NCBI RefSeq assembly: GCF_946481145.1
Contig: NZ_CAMLMJ010000002.1
Location: 62,001-126,000 of the forward strand
DNA from: an uncultured Sediminibacterium sp.
Lineage (GTDB): Bacteria; Bacteroidota; Bacteroidia; Chitinophagales; Chitinophagaceae
Direction of reading: 5' to 3'
Length of the DNA: 64,000 nt
Below the pieces are notes generated by a model. It ran no database searches. It was not told where the DNA came from and saw only the letters and a list, made by a program, of their open reading frames with translations. Within the stretch, counting starts at the first letter, position 1. Every line of letters starts with the position of its first letter. Shown in pieces: positions 52,343 through 63,612 of this stretch. The position numbers and the translations under genes are program-made.

Positions 52343-53845
52343 CTATTTCTCACTTTCGTTACCTAGTCTGTTTACAGCCGTTACTACAATATCAGAAATC
52401 TTAATACTTTCTTTATTTCCTGAAACAATAGATTGATCTAATAGTATACTTCTGTCATTTTTATTTAATATCCGGTATCTTTTCTGTGTGCCATATTGAT
52501 AATAAACTACCCACCTGAAAACGTTATTTGATTCTGGATGTGTCCAACTGACTTTTACTTTTTCGTTTTCAGTTGTGATATCTACTGCCGGTTTTGCGGG
52601 TTTATCTCTTCCAAGCCATGGACTTTCAGGTACCAGTGCCTGTTTTTTATAAGGCCCTTCAATCAGTGCTTTAGCCATTGGCGGGTTTTTGGAAACAGAG
52701 AAAATATTCCAATGTAAAACACCCATACTCGAAGGCAACATACCCCTTGAAATCATGATCTGACTCATGATTTCATTTACATTTTTTGCACTTGTATCTC
52801 TTCCTACACTAATACCCGGCCATAAATGTCTTTGTAAAGTATTCTCCTGTTGCCACCAGCCTAACAATACCGGATAACTTTGTGGCATACGGTTAATGGG
52901 CCAGTATAACTGTGGTGCGAAATAATCAATCCAGCCCTTATTCAGCCAAAGTTTGGCATCAGCATATAATTGATCGTATTGATCAAATCCTTCAATGGAA
53001 GAAGGATATCCAGGTCGCCAGATACCAAATGGACTCAGTCCGAATTTCACGTGTTTTTTTTCGGCTTTTATTTCCTTGTACAATCGTTCAATCAATGTAT
53101 TAACCGCGTCTCTGCGCCAGTCGTCTCTCGAAAGTTTACCCCCTGACTGCTGGTAAGCTTTCCAGCTTATATCATCCGGAAAATCATCTGTACCATTATA
53201 AGAAGGGTAAGGATAAAAATAATCGTCGAAGTGAACGCCATCAATGTCATATCGTTTTACCAGATCCATTACTACTGCTGATGTATGATTCTGTGTTGCT
53301 TTTTGTGCCGGATCCATCCACCAATATCCTTCCTTTAATTTCATCACGAGTTCAGGATGCTTTTTTACAATAGATTGATCACTGATTTCTTTTCCATCTT
53401 TATGATGTGCCCTGTATGGATTTAGCCATACATGTAGTTCCATTCCTCTATCGTGAGCGGCTTCAATCCAAAATTGTAATGGATCATAAAAAGGATCGGG
53501 TGCTTTTCCCTGTTTACCCGTAAGGTAATACGACCAAGGCTCCAAAGCACTGTCGTACAATGCATCCGCCTGTGGACGCACCTGAAAAATAACTGCATTA
53601 AAATGATGTGCCTGTAGGAAATCCAATTGTTCAATAGCTTCTTTCTTTTGTTGCTCAACCGACAATCCCGGCTTACTGGGCCAATTAATATTAGCCACTG
53701 TTGCAATCCAGGCTGCCCTGAACTCCCTATCTGCTGCAAAGTTTTTTGCCGGAAGTTTATCACCTGAATGGGTTGCTCTCTTAGATGGGTTACAACAAAA
53801 AAACAATAACCCTATCAAACAAATACCAATACTATTACGATACAT
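52343..53845 (-). CDS. GHL10-type glycoside hydrolase-like lipoprotein
   Basis: The 500-residue protein has a lipobox (LIGLLFFCC) and a GHL10/DUF187 TIM-barrel. Segments are REFRAAWIATVANINWP, FQVRPQADALYDS, ELHVWLNPYRAH, YDIDGVHFDDYFYPYP and FGLSPFGIWRPG. A C-terminal fibronectin-like part (about 420-500) follows. It is a predicted outer-membrane lipoprotein; the polysaccharide or peptidoglycan substrate is unknown. Confidence 0.88.
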   Translation of the reverse strand: MYRNSIGICLIGLLFFCCNPSKRATHSGDKLPAKNFAADREFRAAWIATVANINWPSKPGLSVEQQKKEAIEQLDFLQAHHFNAVIFQVRPQADALYDSALEPWSYYLTGKQGKAPDPFYDPLQFWIEAAHDRGMELHVWLNPYRAHHKDGKEISDQSIVKKHPELVMKLKEGYWWMDPAQKATQNHTSAVVMDLVKRYDIDGVHFDDYFYPYPSYNGTDDFPDDISWKAYQQSGGKLSRDDWRRDAVNTLIERLYKEIKAEKKHVKFGLSPFGIWRPGYPSSIEGFDQYDQLYADAKLWLNKGWIDYFAPQLYWPINRMPQSYPVLLGWWQQENTLQRHLWPGISVGRDTSAKNVNEIMSQIMISRGMLPSSMGVLHWNIFSVSKNPPMAKALIEGPYKKQALVPESPWLGRDKPAKPAVDITTENEKVKVSWTHPESNNVFRWVVYYQYGTQKRYRILNKNDRSILLDQSIVSGNKESIKISDIVVTAVNRLGNESEK

Positions 53846-53919
53846 AAATCTGTTTTGTAAGCATTAAAATTACTGGAATAATGTGAATCAAGCGTGGAAG
53901 GGGGTATGTGCATGGAACC

Positions 53920-53968
53920 TAGTCCATAGACCATAGTCCATGGTCCATGGTCTATGGTCTATGGACTA
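53920..53968. repeat. CCATGG/CTATGG palindrome, copy 2
   Basis: TAGTCCATAGACCATAG (53920-53936) is exactly complementary to 53952-53968. The 15-base loop is itself made of CCATGG units. Part of it matches copy 1 at 47478-47510. Confidence 0.8.
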
Positions 53969-54042
53969 TTCGCCAGAATCCCTTCAATCCTTGATTCGTC
54001 TGAATAGTTTAGTTTTTCTACCTTCCCCTTTTATTTTTTATC

Positions 54043-54489
54043 ATGGCCTTATCCGGAAAGAAGAAAAAGATTGATGTAATCGACAAATTGCTGGAAGCAT
54101 GCTACCAGCATAATAAAGATGCCTTGTTTATCATGAGCCTGATGCACCAATACGAAGAAAGGGGCAGCCTCAGTAAAAAACAACTGGAAGGACTATTACT
54201 GAAAGCAAAAAAAGTAACCGACATACCAGCCGGCTGGATTGCTGCTGTAGAAGCCATCGTGCTGAAAATGCCCACACGCGATAAAACACCACTGAAAGAA
54301 GTTTCACCGACTAACGAAGCGCCCGACGAAAAATGGCCCGTGCTCATTGCTGGTATCCTCGATAAATACCCACAGCATAAGCGGGTATTGTTCCTTAAAG
54401 CACAGCTTGAACAAAGGAAATTACTGTCTGCTGCGGAACAACAGGAAATTGAAAAATTTCACCAGCTACTCATTACAAAGAAAAAATAG
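54043..54489 (+). CDS. Small basic helical protein of unknown function
   Basis: This 148-residue protein is lysine-rich (MALSGKKKKIDVIDKLLEAC start, ITKKK end) and mostly helical. No signal peptide, membrane span or known domain is seen. It lies immediately before the sulfur island; its stop is two bases before the first CRP-type palindrome. Whether it belongs to that system is unclear. Confidence 0.6.
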   Translation: MALSGKKKKIDVIDKLLEACYQHNKDALFIMSLMHQYEERGSLSKKQLEGLLLKAKKVTDIPAGWIAAVEAIVLKMPTRDKTPLKEVSPTNEAPDEKWPVLIAGILDKYPQHKRVLFLKAQLEQRKLLSAAEQQEIEKFHQLLITKKK

Positions 54490-54491
54490 AC

Positions 54492-54535
54492 TGTGATAAA
54501 AGTCACACCCGGCTTTTTTTATCGGTTTAGATTTG
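54492..54535 (+). promoter_or_regulatory. CRP-type operator A and promoter of the Crp-family gene
   Basis: TGTGATAAAAGTCACA (54492-54507) is a perfect TGTGA-N6-TCACA palindrome. A consensus -7 box TAGATTTG (54528-54535) follows; its last base is 35.5 bp from the palindrome centre. The palindrome is followed by a T run (54514-54520), so a terminator for the upstream gene is an overlapping possibility. Confidence 0.75.
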
Positions 54536-54556
54536 TAGATTATCTAACTTGTGTGC

Positions 54557-55207
54557 ATGGTACCTATTGAGATCATACAAAAACATTTCCCTTTTTTTGA
54601 GAAAGAGCTGCAGGAGCAGATAGCTGCTGTGGGTGAAGTAAAGGAGTTCGACCCGGGCGATATACTCATGAAAACGGGTCAGAATATACGTTCTACCATG
54701 CTGGTTGTTACGGGTCTTATTAAAATATTCAGGGAAGACGAAGAAGGGAATGAGTTCTTTATGTACTACCTGCAGCCTGGTCAGGCCTGTGCTCTGTCGA
54801 TGGTATGCGCCATTAAACAGGAAACCAGCCAGATTATGGCTAAAACAGTAAAGAACACCGAAGTAATTGCCATTCCGCTTACTTATATGGACCAGTGGAT
54901 GGCCAATCATAAAAGCTGGTATCATTTTGTGGTAAGCAGCTATCGCGATCGTTTTGAAGATATGTTACAGACGATCGACCATATTGCTTTCAGGAATATG
55001 GATGAAAGACTGGTATTTTACCTGAAACAACACCAGGATACTACTAATTCAAACCTCCTTTCCATTTCCTTTACGGAAATAGCCCAGGAGTTAAACTCTT
55101 CCCGTGAAGTAATTTCAAGGCTCATGAAGAAACTGGCCGAAAAGGGCATGATTACACAACATAAATCACATATTGAGATCGTGAACCTGCATAAGTGGGA
55201 CACGTGA
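54557..55207 (+). CDS. Crp/Fnr-family transcriptional regulator with C-x5-C sensor
   Basis: The 216-residue protein has a cNMP-binding-type beta-roll (about 10-115), a dimer helix and a winged HTH (about 165-210). The recognition helix SSREVISR (181-188) keeps the R-E-x3-R pattern by which E. coli CRP reads TGTGA, matching the palindromes in this island. It lacks the N-terminal cysteines of Fe-S FNR. Two cysteines, C78 and C84 (QACALSMVCAI), sit after the beta-roll and could sense persulfide or thiol state (inference). The ATG at 54557 is preferred over GTG at 54551. It lies downstream of operator A, so autoregulation is likely. Confidence 0.92.
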   Translation: MVPIEIIQKHFPFFEKELQEQIAAVGEVKEFDPGDILMKTGQNIRSTMLVVTGLIKIFREDEEGNEFFMYYLQPGQACALSMVCAIKQETSQIMAKTVKNTEVIAIPLTYMDQWMANHKSWYHFVVSSYRDRFEDMLQTIDHIAFRNMDERLVFYLKQHQDTTNSNLLSISFTEIAQELNSSREVISRLMKKLAEKGMITQHKSHIEIVNLHKWDT

Positions 55208-55247
55208 TATTTATCACGAATCGAATAATGACTTATAACCATCTTTG
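55203..55247 (+). promoter_or_regulatory. CRP-type operator B and promoter of the TauE-like gene
   Basis: CGTGATATTTATCACG (55203-55218) includes the regulator's stop codon. The -7-like CATCTTTG (55240-55247) ends 36.5 bp from the palindrome centre and lies 17 bp before the next ATG. Confidence 0.75.
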
Positions 55248-55264
55248 CCCTAATAATTAAGAAA

Positions 55265-56077
55265 ATGGAAATAGCTGGTTATATCGCATCACTGGTCATT
55301 GGTATTTCGCTAGGTCTTATTGGCGGTGGAGGTTCAATACTTACAGTACCTGTTCTTGTATATCTTTTTGGCGTTGAGCCTGTATTGGCTACAGCGTATT
55401 CATTGTTTATTGTAGGCACATCGAGCCTGGTGGGCGCGTTCCCTAAGTATAAACAGGGTTTTATCAATGTAAAAACTGCCATCATTTTTGGCATCCCATC
55501 CATTGCTGCCGTGTTTGCCACAAGGAAATTCATTGTTCCCATGATACCGCATGAGGTATTCACGGTGAATGGGTTCGTTGTTACCAGGTCTATTCTTATG
55601 ATGGTTTTATTTGCCTTGTTAATGTTGTTTGCATCGATCTCAATGATCCGTGAAAAACAGAAAACAACAGAGCAAGAGAACGGTCCACAGAAATTCAACT
55701 ACCCACTTATTTTACTGGAAGGAGCCGTTGTAGGCATGTTAACCGGACTGGTTGGCGCTGGAGGTGGTTTTTTAATTATCCCTGCATTGGTACTACTGAG
55801 TAAACTGCCTATGAAGCAGGCTGTAGGAACTTCTTTACTGATTATAGCAGCCAAGTCGCTGATTGGTTTTACCGGAGACCTGTCGCATTTTAACATGGAC
55901 TGGAAATTATTAGGCACTGTAACAGCGCTGGCAATTGGTGGTATTTTTATCGGTAATCGTATGAGTACAAAAATTGATGGTAACAAATTGAAAAAAGGAT
56001 TTGGCTGGTTTGTACTGGTAATGGGTATTTATATCATTGTCAAGGAAATTGTTTTTCCTGGCGGTTCATCACACTAG
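55265..56077 (+). CDS. Sulfite exporter TauE/SafE family protein
   Basis: The 270-residue protein has about eight spans in two inverted halves. Each half opens with the family's glycine motif: SLGLIGGGGSILTVPVLV and LTGLVGAGGGFLIIPALVLL. Members move sulfite, sulfoacetate or related anions. It lies between operator B and the persulfide dioxygenase operon, so export of sulfite formed by that enzyme is the likely job (inference). A GGCC-based hairpin with some G-U pairs follows near 56101-56129 and may end its transcript. Confidence 0.9.
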   Translation: MEIAGYIASLVIGISLGLIGGGGSILTVPVLVYLFGVEPVLATAYSLFIVGTSSLVGAFPKYKQGFINVKTAIIFGIPSIAAVFATRKFIVPMIPHEVFTVNGFVVTRSILMMVLFALLMLFASISMIREKQKTTEQENGPQKFNYPLILLEGAVVGMLTGLVGAGGGFLIIPALVLLSKLPMKQAVGTSLLIIAAKSLIGFTGDLSHFNMDWKLLGTVTALAIGGIFIGNRMSTKIDGNKLKKGFGWFVLVMGIYIIVKEIVFPGGSSH

Positions 56078-56154
56078 TTTCTTTTACCCCCCAATAAATG
56101 AGAGGCCTGCAGCGATGTGGGCCTTTCTAATTATGACAAAGTACAGGTGTTAAT

Positions 56155-56198
56155 GTGACGAATATCACGTTTTATTTTCTCAGATTTTTTCACTTTTA
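56155..56198 (+). promoter_or_regulatory. CRP-type operator C, distal promoter of the sulfur operon
   Basis: GTGACGAATATCAC (56155-56168) is followed by the weak -7-like CACTTTTA (56191-56198), which ends 36.5 bp from the palindrome centre. Confidence 0.6.
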
Positions 56199-56268
56199 CC
56201 CTTAGAAAGTATTGTGTTGCTGAATCAAAACTATAATTACTAAAAGGCAATTGTTAAAATGATAACAA

Positions 56269-56313
56269 CGTGATACAGGTCACGAAAAAAGCTTTAAAAA
56301 GTATTCAATTTTA
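56269..56313 (+). promoter_or_regulatory. CRP-type operator D, proximal promoter of the sulfur operon
   Basis: CGTGATACAGGTCACG (56269-56284) is followed by CAATTTTA (56306-56313), with the same 36.5-bp geometry and the same CAnTTTTA form as at operator C. The operon's first ATG is at 56339. Confidence 0.7.
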
Positions 56314-56338
56314 CCTCATCAAATAAAAACAAACATTT

Positions 56339-57757
56339 ATGATAGTTGAACAAATTTATACCGGATGTCTGGCACAAGGTGCCTACTATATTGAAAGTAA
56401 TGGCGAAGCAGTAGTAATTGACCCGTTACGTGAAGTAGCTCCTTATATTCAGAAAGCAGAGCGCAATGGTGCCAAAATAAAGTATGTATTGGAAACCCAT
56501 TTCCATGCCGACTTTGTTTCAGGTCACCTTGATCTCGCTAAAAAAACAGGTGCACAAATTGTTTATGGACCGAATGCTGCACCGGACTTTGCATTTTATG
56601 CAGCAAAAGATGGTGAATCTTTAAAAGTGGGTAATGCTTCTATTGAAGTATTGCATACTCCAGGACACACCATGGAAAGTACCTGTTATCTTTTAAAAGA
56701 TGAATCAGGAAAAGCTGTCGGACTCTTCAGCGGAGACACCCTTTTTATTGGTGATGTTGGCAGACCAGATCTCGCTCAGAAAGTAAAAGCAGAACTCACA
56801 CAGGATATGCTTGCCGGATATTTGTTCGACTCATTACGCAACAAAATTATGCCGCTTGCCGACGATATCATTGTATATCCTGCGCATGGAGCAGGTAGTG
56901 CCTGTGGTAAAAACATGAGCAAGGAAACAACCGATACACTAGGACATCAGAAACAAAGCAATTATGCTTTAAGAGCAGATATGACCAAAGAAGAGTTTAT
57001 CAAAGAAGTAACAACCGGACTGGTTGCGCCACCTGCTTATTTCCCTTTGAATGTAATGATGAATATTCATGGTTACGATAGTATTGATACTGTGTTGGAA
57101 AGAGGACAGCATGCATTGAGTCCTGAAGCTTTTGAAGCGGCGGCAAATGAAACAGGTGCATTAATTCTCGATACACGCGACCCACAGGTATTTGCAGCAG
57201 GCTTTGTACCAAACTCTATCAATATTGGCATCGACGGCAATTTTGCTCCATGGGTAGGTGCTATGATTCCTGATATTAAACAGGAGATACTGCTTGTAAC
57301 AGATGAAGGCAGAGAACAAGAAGTTATTACCCGTTTGGCAAGGGTTGGTTATGATTTCACCATCGGATATCTGGCAGGAGGTTTTGCAAGTTGGGTAGCA
57401 GCAGGAAAAGAAATAGATCAGATTAGGTCTATCAGTGCAGAAGAGCTGGCTGATATTGCTACTGAAGAAGCAGTAAATATCCTCGATGTTCGTAAAAACA
57501 GCGAATACCTGAGCGAACATGTTTTGGATGCTGAAAATGCACCACTCGACTTTATCAACGATAGTATGAGTCAGATCGATCGTAACAAAACCTATTATGT
57601 GCATTGTGCAGGTGGTTATCGCTCCATGATTTTTAATTCAATACTTCGTGCAAGAGGTTTTGATAACCTGATTGATGTGAAAGGTGGATTTAAAGCGATT
57701 AAAGAATCAAATAAATTCAGGGTAAGCGATTATGTATGCCCTACAACTTTATTATAA
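56339..57757 (+). CDS. Persulfide dioxygenase-rhodanese fusion (ETHE1-like MBL fold plus two rhodanese domains)
   Basis: Residues 1-240 are an ETHE1-like metallo-beta-lactamase domain; by analogy the iron ligands are H54 (THFHAD), H110 (HTPGH) and D133 (SGDTLF). F59 replaces the histidine of the HxHxDH motif, with H63 close by, as in a known subgroup. Two rhodanese domains follow. The first (about 268-355) lacks the active cysteine (LVTDEGRE). The second (about 372-460) keeps it as C423 in HCAGGYRS. Persulfide dioxygenases oxidise glutathione or similar persulfide to sulfite. It starts the main operon under operators C and D and ends two bases before the next ATG. Confidence 0.92.
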   Translation: MIVEQIYTGCLAQGAYYIESNGEAVVIDPLREVAPYIQKAERNGAKIKYVLETHFHADFVSGHLDLAKKTGAQIVYGPNAAPDFAFYAAKDGESLKVGNASIEVLHTPGHTMESTCYLLKDESGKAVGLFSGDTLFIGDVGRPDLAQKVKAELTQDMLAGYLFDSLRNKIMPLADDIIVYPAHGAGSACGKNMSKETTDTLGHQKQSNYALRADMTKEEFIKEVTTGLVAPPAYFPLNVMMNIHGYDSIDTVLERGQHALSPEAFEAAANETGALILDTRDPQVFAAGFVPNSINIGIDGNFAPWVGAMIPDIKQEILLVTDEGREQEVITRLARVGYDFTIGYLAGGFASWVAAGKEIDQIRSISAEELADIATEEAVNILDVRKNSEYLSEHVLDAENAPLDFINDSMSQIDRNKTYYVHCAGGYRSMIFNSILRARGFDNLIDVKGGFKAIKESNKFRVSDYVCPTTLL

Positions 57758-57759
57758 AA

Positions 57760-58041
57760 ATGAAAACAATACAAGAAGTACTCAGCAATGAAAATCCAAT
57801 TGTTGTTGATGTGAGAACTAATAGTGAGTTTAACACTTCACATTACCCGAGCGCGATCAATATTCCGCTTGATGAACTTCCTAAACACCTGAATGAATTA
57901 AAGCAGGAGAACAAGCCGGTAGTATTATACTGCAGAAGTGGTAACAGAAGCGGCATAGGCATGAATTTTCTGCACCAGCAAGGCTTTAAGGAAGTGTACA
58001 ATGGCGGCGGATTATCTGATATGTTGTACTATAAAAATTAA
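57760..58041 (+). CDS. Single-domain rhodanese
   Basis: A 93-residue sulfurtransferase with active cysteine in LYCRSGNRSG and the DVRTNSEFNTSHYPSAINIP entry motif. It moves sulfane sulfur between thiols, thiosulfate or cyanide. An in-frame start at 57736 lies inside the upstream gene; ATG 57760 is chosen. It may pass sulfur to or from the upstream dioxygenase fusion. Confidence 0.92.
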   Translation: MKTIQEVLSNENPIVVDVRTNSEFNTSHYPSAINIPLDELPKHLNELKQENKPVVLYCRSGNRSGIGMNFLHQQGFKEVYNGGGLSDMLYYKN

Positions 58042-58046
58042 GTTGA

Positions 58047-58358
58047 ATGTTATCTTTTTTTAAAAAATTATTCCCTGCTCCCGTAGACTATACTATGCTG
58101 ATTGATAAAGGAGGTTTGATTGTTGATGTAAGAACAGTATCGGAATTTGATGCGGGACATATTAAAGGATCGAAGAATATTCCATTGGATCGCTTACGTA
58201 ATGAGATTACGCGTCTTAAGCAATTAAATGTACCCATTATCACCGTTTGCAGAAGCGGAAACAGAAGTGGTATGGCAAAATCATTGCTAACAGGCGCTGG
58301 TGTTGAAGCATATAATGGCGGTCCCTGGAATTCTTTGGCTAATAAAATCAGTAAATAA
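58047..58358 (+). CDS. Single-domain rhodanese, second copy
   Basis: A 103-residue rhodanese with active cysteine in TVCRSGNRSG and DVRTVSEFDAGHIKGSKNIP. It starts five bases after the preceding rhodanese and has a short N-terminal extension (MLSFFKKLFPAP) that may touch the membrane. The two copies differ in sequence around the active site, so they may have different partners. Its stop overlaps the next ATG by one base. Confidence 0.92.
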   Translation: MLSFFKKLFPAPVDYTMLIDKGGLIVDVRTVSEFDAGHIKGSKNIPLDRLRNEITRLKQLNVPIITVCRSGNRSGMAKSLLTGAGVEAYNGGPWNSLANKISK

Positions 58359-58594
58359 TGAAAACAATCCTGCAAAACTGGCATTTCATGCGTGTGTTAA
58401 GGGTAGTGCTAGCAATAGCTGTGCTGGTTCAATCGTGGTATGCAAAGGATAGTACTACTGCCATTATCGGGATCATGTTATTGGCAATGGGTATCTTTAA
58501 TATCGGTTGCTGTGGGCCAACTGGCTGTTACACAACACCGGGTAAGAAGAATACTGTTTCAACAAAAGAATCCGTTTATGAAGAAATTCTTTAG
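58358..58594 (+). CDS. DUF2892-like membrane protein with cysteine cluster
   Basis: A 78-residue protein with two spans (about 12-27 and 33-48) and a C-terminal GCCGPTGCYT cysteine cluster. It resembles the membrane part of YgaP-type rhodaneses (DUF2892), here as a separate gene after two soluble rhodaneses. The cysteines could accept sulfane sulfur at the membrane (inference). Its last 17 bases overlap the next gene. Confidence 0.8.
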   Translation: MKTILQNWHFMRVLRVVLAIAVLVQSWYAKDSTTAIIGIMLLAMGIFNIGCCGPTGCYTTPGKKNTVSTKESVYEEIL

Positions 58595-58793
58595 TAATAA
58601 TTATTTATTGCTGACCGGAGGACTTCTGGGAGCATTATCTGGATACCTCTACTGGAAATATGTAGGATGTATAACAGGCACTTGTGCCATAACATCTAAA
58701 CCGATTAACAGCACACTATACTTTTCTTTATTAGGTATACTTGCTTTTAGTCTTTTTAAAAAAACACCGAAAAAAAATACCCATGTTGAATAA
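58578..58793 (+). CDS. DUF6132-like small membrane protein
   Basis: A 71-residue protein with two spans around a VGCITGTCAITSKP loop that carries a C-x4-C pair, the pattern of the DUF6132 family. The ATG at 58578 is chosen; the frame runs open upstream inside the previous gene. It overlaps the genes on both sides, so translation is coupled. Function unknown; the conserved cysteine loop and context suggest sulfur or thiol handling. Confidence 0.75.
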   Translation: MKKFFSNNYLLLTGGLLGALSGYLYWKYVGCITGTCAITSKPINSTLYFSLLGILAFSLFKKTPKKNTHVE

Positions 58794-59088
58794 TTCATTT
58801 GAAAAGATCATAAGCAGTGAAAAGCCTGTGTTGGTCGATTTTTATGCCGACTGGTGTGGGCCCTGTAGAATGATGCCCCCTGTTTTAAAAGAAGTGAAAG
58901 ACCGGTTAGGAGATCAAGTTCAGGTATTCAAGGTAAATGTAGATGAACATGCAGATGTAGCTGCTCATTTTCAGGTTAGCAGTATTCCTACCTTGATGAT
59001 TTTTAAAAAAGGGCAGTTATTGTGGAGAGAAACAGGCGTAAAAAATGCCGGACAACTGCAACAATTGCTACAACAACATTTATCATGA
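58783..59088 (+). CDS. Thioredoxin
   Basis: A 101-residue cytoplasmic thioredoxin with WCGPC in FYADWCGPCRMMPP and the cis-proline in SIPTLMIF. In this operon it is likely the reductant that releases sulfur from rhodanese or persulfide intermediates (inference). The ATG at 58783 overlaps the previous gene by 11 bases. The stop overlaps the next start (ATGA). Confidence 0.92.
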   Translation: MLNNSFEKIISSEKPVLVDFYADWCGPCRMMPPVLKEVKDRLGDQVQVFKVNVDEHADVAAHFQVSSIPTLMIFKKGQLLWRETGVKNAGQLQQLLQQHLS

Positions 59089-59345
59089 CAACTTCAGAAA
59101 AATTCTATGCTGAAAATATTCGTTGCGAAGGTTGTGTAAACACGATAAAATCTGAACTCCTAAAAATTCCCGGAGTTCAGGCGGTAACAGTAGCTGTTCC
59201 GGAAAAGAAGATAGCTGTAATGGGCATAGGAATCAATCGGGCACAGATTACTGCTACTTTAAAAAAACTTGGATACCCTGAATCCGGACATAATTCATTC
59301 TTCAGCAAAGCCCTATCTTTCGTATCCTGTTCAGCTGGTAAATAA
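59085..59345 (+). CDS. Heavy-metal-associated (HMA) domain protein
   Basis: An 86-residue HMA fold with the metal motif C-x2-C in IRCEGCVNTIKSEL. Usually such proteins carry Cu+ or similar soft metals; here a sulfur or persulfide-related role is also possible. A further cysteine lies near the C-terminus (SFVSCSAGK). It is coupled to thioredoxin by ATGA. It is the last soluble protein before the outer-membrane porin gene. Confidence 0.88.
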   Translation: MTTSEKFYAENIRCEGCVNTIKSELLKIPGVQAVTVAVPEKKIAVMGIGINRAQITATLKKLGYPESGHNSFFSKALSFVSCSAGK

Positions 59346-59367
59346 TCATTTATAAGTTTTATTAGGC

Positions 59368-60759
59368 ATGGTTTTAAAATATGCTGCCATGGCGGCCTTA
59401 TTTTTCATTTCATTTATCTCTGTAATGGCACAACCAGCAGATGATGAACAAAAAGCCGATAGCAGTTCGCTGCTGGGGGCTTTCAAGCATGGAAAGACAG
59501 AAGGACATTTCCGGTATTTTTTCATGGCAACGGATAATAAAAAAGGACTTACAGATTATCATGCACATGCTACCGGTGGAGGACTTCGATTTGTGTCTGC
59601 CCCGTTTCATGGTTTTCAGTTAGGTATTGGTGGTTTCTTTATTTTCAATACAGGATCTTCTGATTTATTAAAACCTGATCCCGTTACCGGACAATTGAAC
59701 CGATATGAAATTGGTTTATTTGATATAGAACATCCATCGAACAAAAATGATATTGATCGTCTTGAAGAATTATTTATCCGTTATGAATGGAGAAACCAAT
59801 CCATAAAATTTGGCAAACAAATCATCAATACTCCATTTATAAACCCACAAGACGGCAGAATGCGTCCGACAGGAGTAGAAGGAGTCTGGTATCAAAAAAA
59901 ATCGGAACGAACCCAGATCAATGCAGGTGTTTTATGGAAGATAAGTCCGAGAAGTACCGTTCGCTGGTTTAATGTTGGAGAGTCAATAGGTGTTTACCCG
60001 CAAGGGGTTAGTGAATCCGGATCTCCATCTGCCTATAAAAATAATCTCAACAGTAATTATGTTGCCCTATTCGGTATCACACAAAAACTGAATAACCGTT
60101 TAAAAATTCAGTTATGGGAACAATTGGTTGATCAAATGTTTAATACCGTATTGTTACAGGCCGATCAGGATTTTGGATCAAATGAAAGTGCTCATGCATA
60201 TACTGCTGTTCAAGGTATCATGCAACAATCCCTGAAAGATGGCGGCAATACCTCTCCTGCCCTTACTTATATGCAAAAGGGAAGCACTGCACTGAGTTTT
60301 GGTGTCAGGGTTGGTTATAAAAACAAAGAAGAAGATTTATCATTGAATTATAATCGTATTACTGGTAACGGACGATACCTAATGCCAAGAGAGTGGGGGC
60401 GCGACCCTTTCTTTACTTTTTTACCTCGTGAAAGAAATGAGGGTTTTGGTAATTTAAATGCCTGGATGTTACAGTATAAACGTAAATATGGTAAAAGTGG
60501 ACTTCAATCGCAATTCGGTTTGGGTTATTACCAATTGCCGGATGTACTTGATGCAAGACTCAACAAATACGGAATGCCCTCCTACACGCAATTCAATGCG
60601 GATGTACAATATAATTTCAGTGGTGCACTAAACGGGGCGCAGCTGCAATTCCTTTATGTTTATAAAGGGGGTAATGGAAATACCTACAATAATGATAAAT
60701 ATGTGATCCATAAAGTAAATACTTCCTTATTCAACCTAATTTTAAACTATCGATTTTAA
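59368..60759 (+). CDS. OprD-like outer-membrane porin
   Basis: The 463-residue protein has a signal peptide (MVLKYAAMAALFFISFISVMAQ), alternating beta-strand pattern throughout and a C-terminal phenylalanine (NLILNYRF), the outer-membrane barrel signal. Segments such as TGGGLRFVSAPFHGFQLGIGGFF, TPFINPQDGRM and GVWYQKK fit OprD-type specific porins. In this operon it may admit thiosulfate or another sulfur anion (inference). Confidence 0.82.
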   Translation: MVLKYAAMAALFFISFISVMAQPADDEQKADSSSLLGAFKHGKTEGHFRYFFMATDNKKGLTDYHAHATGGGLRFVSAPFHGFQLGIGGFFIFNTGSSDLLKPDPVTGQLNRYEIGLFDIEHPSNKNDIDRLEELFIRYEWRNQSIKFGKQIINTPFINPQDGRMRPTGVEGVWYQKKSERTQINAGVLWKISPRSTVRWFNVGESIGVYPQGVSESGSPSAYKNNLNSNYVALFGITQKLNNRLKIQLWEQLVDQMFNTVLLQADQDFGSNESAHAYTAVQGIMQQSLKDGGNTSPALTYMQKGSTALSFGVRVGYKNKEEDLSLNYNRITGNGRYLMPREWGRDPFFTFLPRERNEGFGNLNAWMLQYKRKYGKSGLQSQFGLGYYQLPDVLDARLNKYGMPSYTQFNADVQYNFSGALNGAQLQFLYVYKGGNGNTYNNDKYVIHKVNTSLFNLILNYRF

Positions 60760-60769
60760 TTTATAAGCT

Positions 60770-61744
60770 ATGTGGAAGAAATTTAAAGCAGACTGGTTGG
60801 CTTATATATTATTTGCATTGGTGCTTTTTGTTATTGCTGGCTGGCTATGGCAAAGCAATGTTCAAAAAGACCTGCAGGTTCAGACAGACAGTAACTGGCA
60901 TGCACCCAGTTATTTTTTAGACCCTATAAAAGATGATAGTACCCGTTCCCTTGTTTTGTATGGGGAAGAATTAATTGCACATACTGCTGCCTATTTTGGT
61001 CCTAAAGGAAGTATTAAAGCCATCAGTAATGGAATGAATTGTCAGAACTGTCATCTTGATGCAGGTAAACGAGTTTGGGGAAACAATTATGCAGCAGTGG
61101 CGGCTAATTATCCAAAGTTCAGGGCAAGAAGTGGAAGCATGGAAAGTATTTATAAACGAGTAAGTGATTGTTTTGAAAGAAGTTTAAATGGACAAGCCCC
61201 CGATAGTAACAGTCGTGAATATAAAGCTATTGAAACCTATATAAAATGGCTAGGTAAAGAGGTCTCAAAAAAAGATAAGCCAAATGGAACAGGTATTAAA
61301 GTACCCGAACTGTTAACCCGTGCGGCCGACCCGATAAAGGGTAAAAAAGTATATGCTTTGAACTGCGAACGCTGTCATGGCAGCAATGGAGAAGGACAGC
61401 TTAACCCCGATAATATTGGATACAGTTATCCTCCTTTATGGGGTAACCACAGTTATAATACTGGTGCCGGACTTTACCGCCTGAGTAATTTTGCGGGTTT
61501 TGTTCAGTCTAATATGCCCTTTAATGAGGTAACGCATCAAAACCATTTAACCAATGAAGAAGCATGGGATCTGGCGGCTTATGTTAATTCACAGCCCCGA
61601 CCTGTTTTTACAAATAAGTCAGACTGGCCCGATATTTCCAAAAAGCCCTTCGATCATCCATTTGGGCCCTATGCTGATAATTTTAGTGAGCAACAACACA
61701 AATACGGGCCCTTTTTACCGATAATAGCTGCTAAGCAACGATAA
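60770..61744 (+). CDS. Dihaem c-type cytochrome, TsdA-like thiosulfate dehydrogenase
   Basis: An N-terminal anchor (about 10-28) is followed by two cytochrome c domains: haem 1 C91-x2-C-H95 (NCQNCHLD) and haem 2 C199-x2-C-H203 (NCERCHGS). The segment ISNGMNCQNCHLDAGKR and the later SDCFERSLNG are typical of TsdA. C134 in that last motif is a candidate axial ligand of haem 1, as the equivalent Cys is in studied TsdA. TsdA enzymes convert thiosulfate and tetrathionate. It lies ten bases after the porin gene, and operator E follows. Confidence 0.88.
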   Translation: MWKKFKADWLAYILFALVLFVIAGWLWQSNVQKDLQVQTDSNWHAPSYFLDPIKDDSTRSLVLYGEELIAHTAAYFGPKGSIKAISNGMNCQNCHLDAGKRVWGNNYAAVAANYPKFRARSGSMESIYKRVSDCFERSLNGQAPDSNSREYKAIETYIKWLGKEVSKKDKPNGTGIKVPELLTRAADPIKGKKVYALNCERCHGSNGEGQLNPDNIGYSYPPLWGNHSYNTGAGLYRLSNFAGFVQSNMPFNEVTHQNHLTNEEAWDLAAYVNSQPRPVFTNKSDWPDISKKPFDHPFGPYADNFSEQQHKYGPFLPIIAAKQR

Positions 61745-61751
61745 CTGATCG

Positions 61752-61797
61752 GCGTGACATGTATCACGCTTCAAAAAATTGTTTATCGGCATTTTTG
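61752..61797 (+). promoter_or_regulatory. CRP-type operator E and promoter of the YeeE pair
   Basis: GCGTGACATGTATCACGC (61752-61769) has six-base perfect arms and is followed by CATTTTTG (61790-61797), which ends 36.5 bp from the palindrome centre. The ATG of the first transporter is at 61814. Confidence 0.75.
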
Positions 61798-61813
61798 CCA
61801 TCAATTATTTTTT

Positions 61814-62377
61814 ATGAAGGAATTCTTACAACAGCCTTGGCCATGGTATATTGCCGGCGCACTTATAGGATTAATCGTCCCGATACTTTTATTGTTGGGT
61901 AATAAACATTTTGGCATATCTGCTAACCTGCGTCATGCCTGCGCCGCCTGTTTTCCGGCAAAGATTAATTTTTTTAACTACGATTGGAAAAAAGAATCCT
62001 GGAACCTGTTTTTTGTAGGAGGTATATTAGTCGGTGCTATGATTGCCGCATTTGGTATACCAGATCCAAACCCGATTGTAGTTAATCCTGCATTGGTTGA
62101 TGAATTGAAAGAGTATGGAATTTCCAATTATAGTAGCATGGTACCGCAGGACCTTGTTTCCTGGGAATCTTTATTTTCTGCCAGGGGTTTTGTAATGATG
62201 GTAGGCGGCGGATTCCTGGTTGGCTTTGGTTCCCGTTATGCAGGTGGTTGTACCAGTGGACATGCCATTATGGGGATCAGCAATTTACAATGGCCTTCGG
62301 TTATAGCTACCTGTTGTTTTATGGTGGGTGGTTTCATCATGGCTAATTTCCTACTTCCGTTTATTATGAAAATGTAA
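61814..62377 (+). CDS. YeeE/YedE-family sulfur transporter, half-size subunit 1
   Basis: The 187-residue protein has about five spans and the family motif GGCTSGHAIMGIS with C146. YeeE/TsuA proteins carry thiosulfate through the inner membrane along conserved cysteines. Bacteroidota often have two half-size genes instead of one long protein, as here. The start at 61814 (MKEFLQQPWPWYIAG) lies after operator E; a frame from the GTG at 61754 runs through the operator and is rejected. Confidence 0.9.
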   Translation: MKEFLQQPWPWYIAGALIGLIVPILLLLGNKHFGISANLRHACAACFPAKINFFNYDWKKESWNLFFVGGILVGAMIAAFGIPDPNPIVVNPALVDELKEYGISNYSSMVPQDLVSWESLFSARGFVMMVGGGFLVGFGSRYAGGCTSGHAIMGISNLQWPSVIATCCFMVGGFIMANFLLPFIMKM

Positions 62378-62387
62378 TCCAGCAACA

Positions 62388-62891
62388 ATGAACCCAAATC
62401 AAACAGAAATAGTAACCGATTTTGAAGTACGCTCCTTAGACACAATGTGTGTTAACGAGTCGGAAAAACAACACCCCTGGTGGTATAATTTCAAATACCT
62501 CGCTGTTGGTGTTTTATTTGGAATTGTTTTTGTGAAAGCAGAAATCATCTCCTGGTTTCGCATGCAGGAAATGTTTCGCTTCCAAAGTTTTCACATGTAT
62601 GGTGTAATTGGAACAGCTATAGTGGTGGCCGCTATATCCATAGCACTGATTAAAAAATTCAAAGTGAAAACAATTCACGGTGAAGAGATTCATTTTACAC
62701 CCAAAAAATTTAATAAGGGCCAGATAATCGGCGGATTAATTTTCGGATTAGGCTGGGCCTTAACAGGTGCATGTCCCGGACCGATCTTCGCACAAATTGG
62801 TATGGGTATTACCGTAATGATTGTAGTTTTATTAAGTGCTATTGCAGGCACCTGGGTATATGGGTATTTTAGGGAGCGGTTGCCGCATTAG
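62388..62891 (+). CDS. YeeE/YedE-like (DUF6691) sulfur transporter, half-size subunit 2
   Basis: The 167-residue protein has about four spans, with the family cysteine in LGWALTGACPGPIFAQIG (C129). It pairs with the preceding gene (ten-base gap) to form a presumed heteromeric sulfur-compound importer. The N-terminal 40 residues are soluble and may contact the first subunit. It ends the sulfur island; the next DNA is repeat-rich. Confidence 0.88.
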   Translation: MNPNQTEIVTDFEVRSLDTMCVNESEKQHPWWYNFKYLAVGVLFGIVFVKAEIISWFRMQEMFRFQSFHMYGVIGTAIVVAAISIALIKKFKVKTIHGEEIHFTPKKFNKGQIIGGLIFGLGWALTGACPGPIFAQIGMGITVMIVVLLSAIAGTWVYGYFRERLPH

Positions 62892-63189
62892 CTTTGGGCT
62901 ATTAGCTATTAGCTGTTAGCCATTAGCTATTAATGCGAATCAAGGGTTGAAATCTGCCAAAAATGAGAAAATCATCGATAGAGGGGTCTTTTGACGTCAT
63001 TAAAATAGGCTCCTATAAAATAATAGCTCCTAATCTTATTTGGCTGCGTAGATAGAACACGGATTTATCATGATCAATCATGATAATCATGATAAATCTG
63101 TGTTCCCTCTAACTCTTCTAAATATTAACAATTCCCTTTTCGCACAAAAAGCTAATGGCTAATAGCTAAAAGCCAACAGCCGCTAGCTA
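62890..63189. repeat. Inverted AGCTATTAGC-type repeat enclosing palindromic copy 3
   Basis: Arms of about 38-39 bases made of GCTAATAG/CTATTAGC units lie near 62890-62928 and 63151-63189 and are about 80% complementary. They flank the dispersed palindrome copy 3. The arm ends reach the stops of the yeeE-like and DUF1003 genes. No gene lies between. Confidence 0.65.
63055..63105. repeat. Dispersed palindromic element, copy 3
   Basis: GAACACGGATTTATCATGAT (63055-63074) pairs with 63086-63105 with one mismatch, 11-base loop. The ends GAACAC / GTGTTC match copies 1 and 2, but the flanks do not. Confidence 0.78.
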
Positions 63190-63612
63190 CTACTTCCCCC
63201 TTTCAAGTATCGCCAATATCTTATCGAGTTTATCTGTTTCAATCCTGTTTAACCTTCTTTGTAATTCCTCGATCTCGAGTTTGGCTTCGAGATTGGTTTG
63301 GTAATCATCCATGGCCTGCAAGCGGTCTCTTTCATTTTGTCTTTTTTGCGACATCATAATGATTGGCGCTGCATAAGCTGCCTGGGTAGAGAATAAAAGG
63401 TTTAATAGTATAAAAGGATAAGGATCCCAATGCATCAGGTAACCAATCAGGTTACAAGCCATCCACCCCAGTACAAAAATGGTTTGGATGATGATAAAAG
63501 TCCAGGAACCCATACCATTAGAAATGCTATCCGCAATTCGCTGGCCAAATGTTCTTTCTGCACTATGTATTTCATGCCAGGTTTTTAATTGCGCAGAATA
63601 TTTCTTTTTCAT
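63190..63612 (-). CDS. DUF1003 membrane protein
   Basis: This 140-residue protein has two spans (about 35-55 and 65-85), with GSWTFIIIQTIFVLGWM and DPYPFILLNLLFSTQAAYAAPIIMMSQ, the DUF1003 signature, and a C-terminal coiled-coil-like charged helix (about 95-140). Function unknown. It is convergent with the sulfur-transporter pair across a repeat region. Confidence 0.9.
   Translation of the reverse strand: MKKKYSAQLKTWHEIHSAERTFGQRIADSISNGMGSWTFIIIQTIFVLGWMACNLIGYLMHWDPYPFILLNLLFSTQAAYAAPIIMMSQKRQNERDRLQAMDDYQTNLEAKLEIEELQRRLNRIETDKLDKILAILERGK

Follow-up and report, generated by a model that had tools for sequence, protein, structure and literature searches.

Five short palindromes stand before genes of a cluster with an apparent role in the detoxification of reactive sulfur, which raises the question of what controls these genes, and whether the Crp-family protein encoded among them does so. 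A pattern scan of the window (the whole 64-kb stretch of DNA analysed) for the exact 14-mer GTGAN6TCAC yielded five matches, all within this cluster (Table 1), bearing out the five GTGA-N6-TCAC palindromes of a first-pass annotation, whose coordinates marked the right places but in four cases included extra flanking bases. Likewise, all five operators are present, but two of them form a tandem pair before one gene, that of the dioxygenase, and the -7-like octamers and the distances quoted for them (35.5 or 36.5 bp) gave the same values when re-measured. We computed the sites, their spacing and conservation, their association with these genes, and the co-variation of recognition helix and operator. 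Probably, the cluster is a dedicated reactive-sulfur regulon run by its own Crp-family protein through class II activation and gating by Cys78 and Cys84; what is seen in relatives points to the neighbouring regulator as what turns the cluster on.

Table 1. Operators and genes of the cluster, in window positions; distances run from the palindrome centre to the last base of the -7 element.
Feature	Position	Strand	-7 element	Distance (bp)	Context or basis
Operator 1	54493..54506	+	54528-54535, TAGATTTG	35.5	5' of regulator gene
Operator 2	55204..55217	+	55240-55247, CATCTTTG	36.5	5' of TauE; overlaps stop codon of regulator gene
Operator 3	56155..56168	+	56191-56198, CACTTTTA	36.5	distal tandem site, dioxygenase operon
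Operator 4	56270..56283	+	56306-56313, CAATTTTA	36.5	proximal site, dioxygenase operon
Operator 5	61754..61767	+	61790-61797, CATTTTTG	36.5	5' of YeeE pair
Crp-family regulator, 216 aa	54557..55207	+			Cys78, Cys84; recognition helix S-S-R183-E184-V-I-S-R188
TauE/SafE family exporter	55265..56077	+			PF01925
Metallo-beta-lactamase with two rhodanese stretches (persulfide dioxygenase / sulfurtransferase type)	56339..57757	+			domain and sequence matches
Single-domain rhodanese	57760..58041	+			PF00581
Single-domain rhodanese	58047..58358	+			PF00581
Small membrane protein	58358..58594	+			weak YgaP-like TM match, below cut-off
Small membrane protein	58581..58793	+			weak DUF6132 match, below cut-off
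Thioredoxin	58783..59088	+			domain match
Heavy-metal-associated (HMA) domain protein	59085..59345	+			domain match
OprD-like outer-membrane porin	59368..60759	+			PF03573
Cytochrome c, SoxA/TsdA-type, with second cytochrome c domain	60770..61744	+			domain match
YeeE/YedE half-transporter 1	61814..62377	+			Sulf_transp
YeeE/YedE half-transporter 2	62388..62891	+			Sulf_transp

The dioxygenase-type product matches 3tp9 and 3r2u along almost its whole sequence, and ETHE1 (4chl) and BpPRF (5ve3) in part. An Rfam search of positions 53800-63300 returned four matches, none above the gathering score. The regulator carries PF00027 and PF13545 above cut-off, the cNMP-binding domain and Crp-type winged helix of the Crp/Fnr superfamily, and the Foldseek matches of its structure model are Crp/Fnr structures, FNR and HcpR among them. 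The model has a mean pLDDT of 90 and a predicted helix at residues 79-86; because its pTM is 0.65 and the TM-scores are about 0.5-0.6 among the matches listed, the claim is limited to fold class. Identity with cAMP-CRP was set aside, since the cAMP contacts of CRP, which we take to be Glu72, Arg82 and Ser83, are all changed in the alignment to CRP sequence u59773 (Glu72 faces a gap, Arg82 a Glu and Ser83 a Thr) and the NCBIfam CRP model scores 52 bits, under its cut-off of 266. FNR, which holds a 4Fe-4S cluster with three N-terminal cysteines and a fourth, was likewise set aside because Cys78 and Cys84 are the only cysteines of the regulator and the NCBIfam Fnr model scores 32 bits against a cut-off of 228. 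The BigR family was excluded as well, the regulator's domains being Crp-type and including a cNMP-binding domain, whereas BigR has an ArsR-type fold without one.

Both cysteines, at the site of the former cAMP pocket, are present in 120/120 close homologues among the matches listed; two conserved cysteines also mark persulfide sensors of the BigR/SqrR/CstR kind. The order-level set has Cys78 in 57/57 and Cys84 in 54/57 regulators, and wider relatives retain Cys78 with Cys84 missing in 42/114. Several loci without Cys84 keep the same neighbour genes, so Cys84 may be dispensable for the sulfur role; a search for a common spaced operator among regulators without Cys84 did not find one. We infer that the regulator is a thiol-gated, persulfide-responsive activator. 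The same regulator and operators could instead serve another signal: the dimer's four cysteines may be bridged by a metal or an Fe-S cluster, or the cue may be nitric oxide, oxidants in general, or a sulfur anion bound non-covalently, for instance sulfite or thiosulfate. A cofactor could be held jointly by the two cysteines of each subunit, loss of Cys84 while Cys78 is kept is unexpected for a strict dithiol switch, and the FNR and HcpR fold matches lean the same way; set against this, the regulator is without the FNR-like N-terminal cysteine set and has genes for persulfide, rhodanese and sulfur-transport functions around it, which leaves another signal a serious but lesser possibility.

A genome-wide scan for spaced palindromes in relatives' genomes, the check suggested in the first pass, gave 5, 6, 5 and 5 matches in four Sediminibacterium-type genomes, five per genome being this cluster, against 0, 0, 2 and 0 for the reversed pattern; exact spaced sites in G005 and G006 are situated elsewhere. 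When the same intergenic regions were compared across relatives, the palindrome arms were invariant at 40/40 positions, the -7 stretches at 30/45 and other intergenic sequence at 134/388, and comparison with the four sister genomes supports the targets that had been proposed, namely TauE, the YeeE pair and the dioxygenase operon. Within the order-level set an exact site is found in 41/56 loci, and one with at most one mismatch in 49/56; where TauE lies on the opposite strand (L014, L018, L020, L021), it too has an exact site facing it. Across 169 non-overlapping loci, 78 are without an exact site facing any detected gene, and an exact site at 36.5 bp is absent from 29/72 two-cysteine loci and from 38/42 loci without Cys84.

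It was predicted beforehand that regulators with Val at the equivalent of CRP Glu181 (residue 184 here; RV rather than RE) would have the operator GTAAN6TTAC. With two locus sets combined and four overlapping loci dropped, a GTGA arm is present in 78/78 RE loci with a site and in 1/10 such RV loci, the other 9/10 having GTAA arms only; among RE sites facing genes in the first set, 22/76 have one GTAA arm. The tree places RE/RV switches in two independent pairs, with L019 and L208, whose sites have one mismatch, as a nested third clade, and since two to three independent switches are too few for a sign test, significance is out of reach. This co-variation of the operator base with residue 184 points to a tie between the local regulator and the sites, and comparison also upholds the local Crp-family protein with an R-E-x3-R helix described earlier. 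It is unlikely that the sites are bound by a different Crp paralog, such as a global regulator of the cAMP type, instead of the local protein: GTGA palindromes with this spacing occur widely across the family and three of the four Sediminibacterium-type genomes have two or three PF13545 proteins above cut-off, but G003, as assembled, has a single such match (with two weaker, sub-cut-off ones) and yet five sites, and the operator base follows the local regulator's own residue.

CRP sites in the class II position are centred near -41.5. If the last base of the -7 element lies at -5, as taken for Flavobacterium in the cited part of PMC9723704, the four sites at 36.5 bp would centre at -41.5, the CRP class II position. 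In a 40-bp search stretch per site, the quoted octamer is the sole best match to TAnnTTTG at 54493 and 55204 and ties for best at 56155 (five-way), 56270 (two-way) and 61754 (two-way); because of these ties, the case for the -7 placement is carried by the unvarying distance and its persistence in relatives rather than by the octamer score. Across the 56 order-level loci, 58 of the exact sites that face sulfur genes have the 36.5-bp spacing, while 30 other offsets together account for 11. This comparison suggests a class II-like position, with a spacing that is not peculiar to this regulon: GTGA palindromes in 60 genomes of the family also peak at 36.5 bp, and other Crp-type regulators have the same site geometry.

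At all four target promoters the -7 element begins with CA or GA instead of TA, as it does at 53/68 target sites of RE regulators at 36.5 bp and 49/58 targets in the order-level set. The regulator's self site differs from the targets, with a near-consensus -7 beginning with TA and a spacing of 35.5 bp, which recurs in L001-L006 and L243; outside these seven Sediminibacterium-type loci, exact self-facing sites number three only (L021, L108, L136). On these grounds, the autoregulation proposed in the first-pass annotation finds no support as a positive effect. Such a self site could repress or weakly autoregulate, and all the palindromes might be repressor sites or act without activation; the latter is quite improbable, as occlusion by a repressor tolerates varied site positions, and the strict 36.5-bp spacing and weakened target -7 boxes suit class II activation better. 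Chance is already refuted: one exact GTGAN6TCAC is expected per 120 kb or so here, and five lie in 7.3 kb, all with a spaced -7 and conserved arms, whereas 300 first-order Markov resamplings of the window gave a mean of 0.52 palindromes (maximum 3) and of 0.017 with a spaced -7 (maximum 1), although palindromes with one mismatch tolerated are not rare (22 against 16.0 expected).

For the preferred reading, a dedicated sulfur regulon, we infer binding, activation, the signal with its chemistry, and the direction of transport as follows. A regulator dimer would bind GTGAYN4RTCAC with its centre near -41.5 and recruit RNA polymerase at the weakened -7 elements, as in class II activation. This would activate the exporter gene (TauE), the YeeE pair and the operon that encodes dioxygenase, rhodaneses and thioredoxin. 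The gate would most likely be the pair Cys78 and Cys84, situated where the cAMP pocket used to be; persulfide or polysulfide may modify or link the two and shift the dimer to its DNA-binding form. The products would then convert persulfide to sulfite or thiosulfate, and carry sulfur species across membranes. A wider proposal, whose chances we judge to be even, is that a class of Crp-type activators spread throughout Bacteroidota gave up the cyclic-nucleotide pocket in favour of a dithiol reactive to persulfide, gained control of the TauE, persulfide dioxygenase and YeeE set, which in other bacteria answers to unrelated regulators, and had its operator re-tuned in nature from GTGA to GTAA more than once by Glu-to-Val at the CAP Glu181 position. 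The RE/RV and GTGA/GTAA pattern would be the natural counterpart of the specificity experiments reportedly made on CAP Glu181. If the regulon is as proposed, a Crp-type thiol-gated activator dedicated to reactive-sulfur genes joins the known sensors, and Bacteroidota gain a candidate sensor testable with one protein and five short promoters. The 36.5-bp distance can serve as a rule by which to look for Crp-activated promoters in this group, whose -7 elements are unusual. Known reactive-sulfur sensors, as far as the literature sampled describes them, are of ArsR, CsoR and sigma-54 types and, by title, MarR, OxyR, PerR, LasR, OhrR and AdpA proteins. Among the matches listed, titles and abstract openings named no Crp-type sulfur sensor; the spelling 'Crp/Fnr' was probably missed by part of this search, and we do not claim that such a sensor is unpublished.

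Among known proteins, the top PDB match by both sequence profile and Foldseek is 3dv8, a Crp/Fnr protein of Eubacterium rectale from structural genomics, which has both cysteines at the same alignment positions as the regulator but comes from another phylum and shares 21% identity in the structural alignment. CprK and FLP are Crp/Fnr proteins with cysteine switches, whose cysteine positions and signals differ from those of Cys78/Cys84. The cst operon of Staphylococcus aureus contains an MBL-rhodanese enzyme and TauE, and the enzyme of the present cluster resembles 3tp9 and 3r2u over nearly its whole length. The regulator of the cst operon, CstR, is, by the cited part of PMC9774590, a persulfide-responsive dithiol protein like the one proposed here, but an all-helical CsoR-family repressor and not Crp-type. 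FisR (Cupriavidus, Acinetobacter), in the portion cited of PMC7315123, activates SQR, dioxygenase and TauE genes; the regulator here would also activate dioxygenase and TauE genes, but FisR is a sigma-54 AAA+ protein. The same source reports Acinetobacter baumannii Crp to be persulfidated upon sulfide treatment (PMC7315123); unlike our regulator, that protein came to light through proteome mapping and figures in that paper as a catabolite regulatory protein. Parallels in gene content, as given in the sections cited, are the bigR operon and the A. baumannii FisR and BigR regulons (PMC5823870, PMC7315123). There, BigR (Xylella, Agrobacterium, Acinetobacter) has two sensing cysteines and governs either yeeE-yedE-pdo2 or TauE together with a persulfide dioxygenase that has a sulfurtransferase domain (PMC5823870, PMC7315123), similar to the present set, although BigR, a repressor of the winged-helix ArsR family, comes off DNA upon cysteine oxidation, whereas here a Crp-type protein would sit at activator positions. 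E. coli CRP shares the Crp fold with its helix-turn-helix, the R-E-x3-R helix, the GTGA-N6-TCAC operator and, provided that the -7 element ends at -5 (cited part of PMC9723704), a centre at -41.5; the regulator differs from it in its pocket residues, in the Bacteroidota -7 element and in having a local rather than a global regulon.

Exact GTGAN6TCAC palindromes occur five times in the 64-kb window, the whole of which was searched and holds none beyond these sites, and each is followed by a -7-like element (table below). The first-pass annotation had reported five palindromes with -7-like octamers at fixed distances; all are present as exact matches at the predicted operators, and the distances recompute to the same values. 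Scored alone, the quoted octamer is the sole best element at two sites and joint best at three. Markov resampling gave means of 0.52 palindromes and 0.017 spaced palindromes vs 5 and 5 observed, which tells against spaced palindromes being equally frequent at random. GTGA supplies 4/7 of the 4-base-arm palindromes found 36.5 bp before xAnnTTT(G/A) on both window strands. The class II CRP position is -41.5. If the last base of the -7 element is taken as -5, as in the TAnnTTTG box of Flavobacterium psychrophilum, which spans -12 to -5 (PMC9723704), four palindromes would have their centres at -41.5 and the one before the regulator gene at -40.5.

Features of the window, with distance from palindrome centre to the last base of the -7-like element
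Feature	Window position	Location	Distance (bp)	Remark
Operator 1	54493	before regulator gene	35.5	
Operator 2	55204	before TauE	36.5	overlaps stop codon of regulator gene
Operator 3	56155	before dioxygenase operon	36.5	
Operator 4	56270	before dioxygenase operon	36.5	
Operator 5	61754	before YeeE pair	36.5	
Operators 3 and 4 as a tandem pair	56155-56313	before dioxygenase gene		
Hairpin-like block	56086-56145	between TauE and operator 3		GAGAGGCC...GGGCCTTTC plus TTATGACAAAG
Short self-complementary element	53921-53969			CCATAG/CTATGG

The hairpin-like block, strongly conserved in seven sequences, is perhaps the TauE terminator; Rfam returned an overlapping, sub-threshold MicC match there and no other. 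MicroRNA-family Rfam matches under gathering score at the self-complementary element are probably chance.

Among 21 loci from related genome contigs (L001-L021), the Sediminibacterium-type loci L001-L006 repeat the window pattern, including the 35.5/36.5 distinction; the sequences of L001 and L006 stop short of YeeE. In L014, L018, L020 and L021, which have TauE on the opposite strand, the gene is still faced by an exact site. L008, L010 and L019 lack an exact spaced site towards the cluster genes; their best sites, at 36.5 bp with one mismatch, precede a single gene in L008 and L010 and two genes in L019. The dioxygenase gene is also preceded by two exact operators in tandem, at varying separation, in L001-L006 and L243, and by a single one in 41 further loci across both locus sets. 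Footprint alignments of four intergenic regions (seven sequences each, five for YeeE) have invariant columns in 40/40 palindrome-arm positions vs 30/45 in the 9-base -7 stretches and 134/388 in the remainder.

Six whole genomes were scanned with 21-23 bases between palindrome and -7 element, yielding 5, 6, 5, 5, 2 and 7 matches vs 0, 0, 2, 0, 1 and 4 for a reversed-pattern control. Five matches in each of the four Sediminibacterium-type genomes come from this cluster (5/5, 5/6, 5/5 and 5/5), in agreement with the proposed regulon; in the larger genomes of Chitinophaga japonensis and Niastella vici the sulfur cluster has no exact spaced match, and 2 and 7 lie elsewhere. A second set came from 348 order-level genomes, 59 of which have a regulator related to the one in L019 (E <= 1e-55), and 57 loci were fetched (L207 and L259 being the places of L019 and L018 in the first set). 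With L207 omitted, genes are faced by 58 exact sites at 36.5 bp, in 41/56 loci, and by 11 over 30 other offsets; one mismatch allowed, by 78 at 36.5 bp, in 49/56 loci, and by 37 over those other offsets, with gene profiles made from the window and L001-L021 that bias detection to near relatives. Across both sets, 78/169 loci lack an exact site facing a detected gene.

Spacing as the definition of one regulon is not supported in that form: among the 150 matches listed for palindrome plus AnnTTTG in 60 family genomes the peak is at the same distance (35 at 36.5 bp, 12 at 37.5 bp, 1-6 in other bins), 31/35 of the 36.5-bp matches being GTGAYN4RTCAC. Such geometry is hence common to Crp-type sites in the family rather than peculiar to this regulon.

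PF13545 matches over cut-off number 2, 3, 1 and 2 in the four Sediminibacterium-type genomes; the single one in G003, a possibly incomplete genome with two weaker sub-cut-off matches, is this regulator. A phylum survey of 247 genomes found a relative at E <= 1e-25 in 85, and 95 stretches were fetched, which together with L001-L021 make up the first locus set. Position 184, which corresponds to Glu181 of CAP, carries Glu (RE) in 63 and Val (RV) in 53 of 116 regulators, and the prediction set beforehand was that Val would accompany an altered third base of the half-site. At 36.5 bp, GTGA forms 42/69 palindromes in RE loci and GTAA 14/38 in RV loci (overlapping L116 and L172 both counted). In the first set, GTRA sites at 35.5-36.5 bp that face a detected gene have GTGA:GTAA half-sites of 130:22 (RE) and 1:21 (RV). 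Over both sets, once four overlapping or near-identical loci are dropped, a GTGA arm occurs in 78/78 RE loci with an exact site and GTAA arms only in 9/10 RV loci (79/79 and 10/11 before); Fisher p = 2e-11, ignoring relatedness of loci. The tree holds two independent RE/RV pairs, both of which run as predicted in most pairings and the opposite way in none, and the nested RV clade of L019 and L208 has four one-mismatch sites before TauE/dioxygenase, each with an exact GTAA 5' arm. Exceptions are L123 (RE; a GTAA/GTAA site at 37.5 bp next to a mixed site), L113 (RV; one GTGA arm), and L116 and L165 (RV; GTGA/GTGA sites facing no detected gene). Operators in L082-L096 of the phylum set are mostly hybrids that pair a GTGA arm with a GTAA arm, in an order that depends on the gene (GTGAY..GTTAC before TauE, GTAAC..GTCAC before dioxygenase).

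Autoregulation, activating or repressing, is plausible in Sediminibacterium. Activation, as the annotation's claim implies, is not supported: the self site lies at 35.5 bp in L001-L006 and L243, and its -7 element begins TA, unlike RE target sites at 36.5 bp (CA or GA in 53/68 of the first set and 49/58 of the second); exact self-facing sites occur elsewhere only in L021, L108 and L136.

Cys78 and Cys84, the regulator's sole cysteines, are both kept in 120/120 homologues (best 120 of 4627). Among relatives chosen by similarity to this regulator, and so not representative of Crp proteins at large, Cys78 is missing from only one of 116 (L021, a fragmentary sequence) and Cys84 is present in 72/114; order-level regulators (n = 57) have Cys78 in 57, Cys84 in 54, RE in 54 and RV in 3. 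In the AlphaFold model (pLDDT 90, pTM 0.65) residues 79-86 form a helix, which we take to correspond to the pocket helix of CRP. The best solved relative, 3dv8, a structural-genomics Crp/Fnr protein of Eubacterium rectale, shares both cysteines; because this is another phylum, the cysteine pocket may extend beyond Bacteroidota. The 42 relatives keeping Cys78 without Cys84 (L126, L131, L133-L135, L137-L152, L154-L171 and L173-L175) often carry the motif GESCIMSFLGG. Many of them lie next to sulfur or thioredoxin genes, yet in 38 there is no exact operator at 36.5 bp.

Alongside the Crp-family regulator, the cluster encodes TauE, an MBL-rhodanese enzyme, two rhodaneses, two small membrane proteins, thioredoxin, an HMA protein, a porin, a SoxA/TsdA-type cytochrome and two YeeE halves. 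The MBL-rhodanese enzyme aligns almost end to end with 3tp9 and 3r2u and in part with ETHE1 and BpPRF, and is therefore likely a persulfide dioxygenase/sulfurtransferase. Individual parts of the system are already known; their combination, a Crp-type, putatively thiol-gated regulator with persulfide genes, was not found in the literature searched. CstR reportedly controls similar gene content. BigR and FisR also regulate gene sets resembling this cluster's (PMC5823870, PMC7315123), and the fold of this regulator differs from theirs and from that of CstR (PMC9774590). Because such genes here accompany another fold and sites at predicted activator positions, we favour a Crp-type, thiol-gated regulator that would activate persulfide handling.
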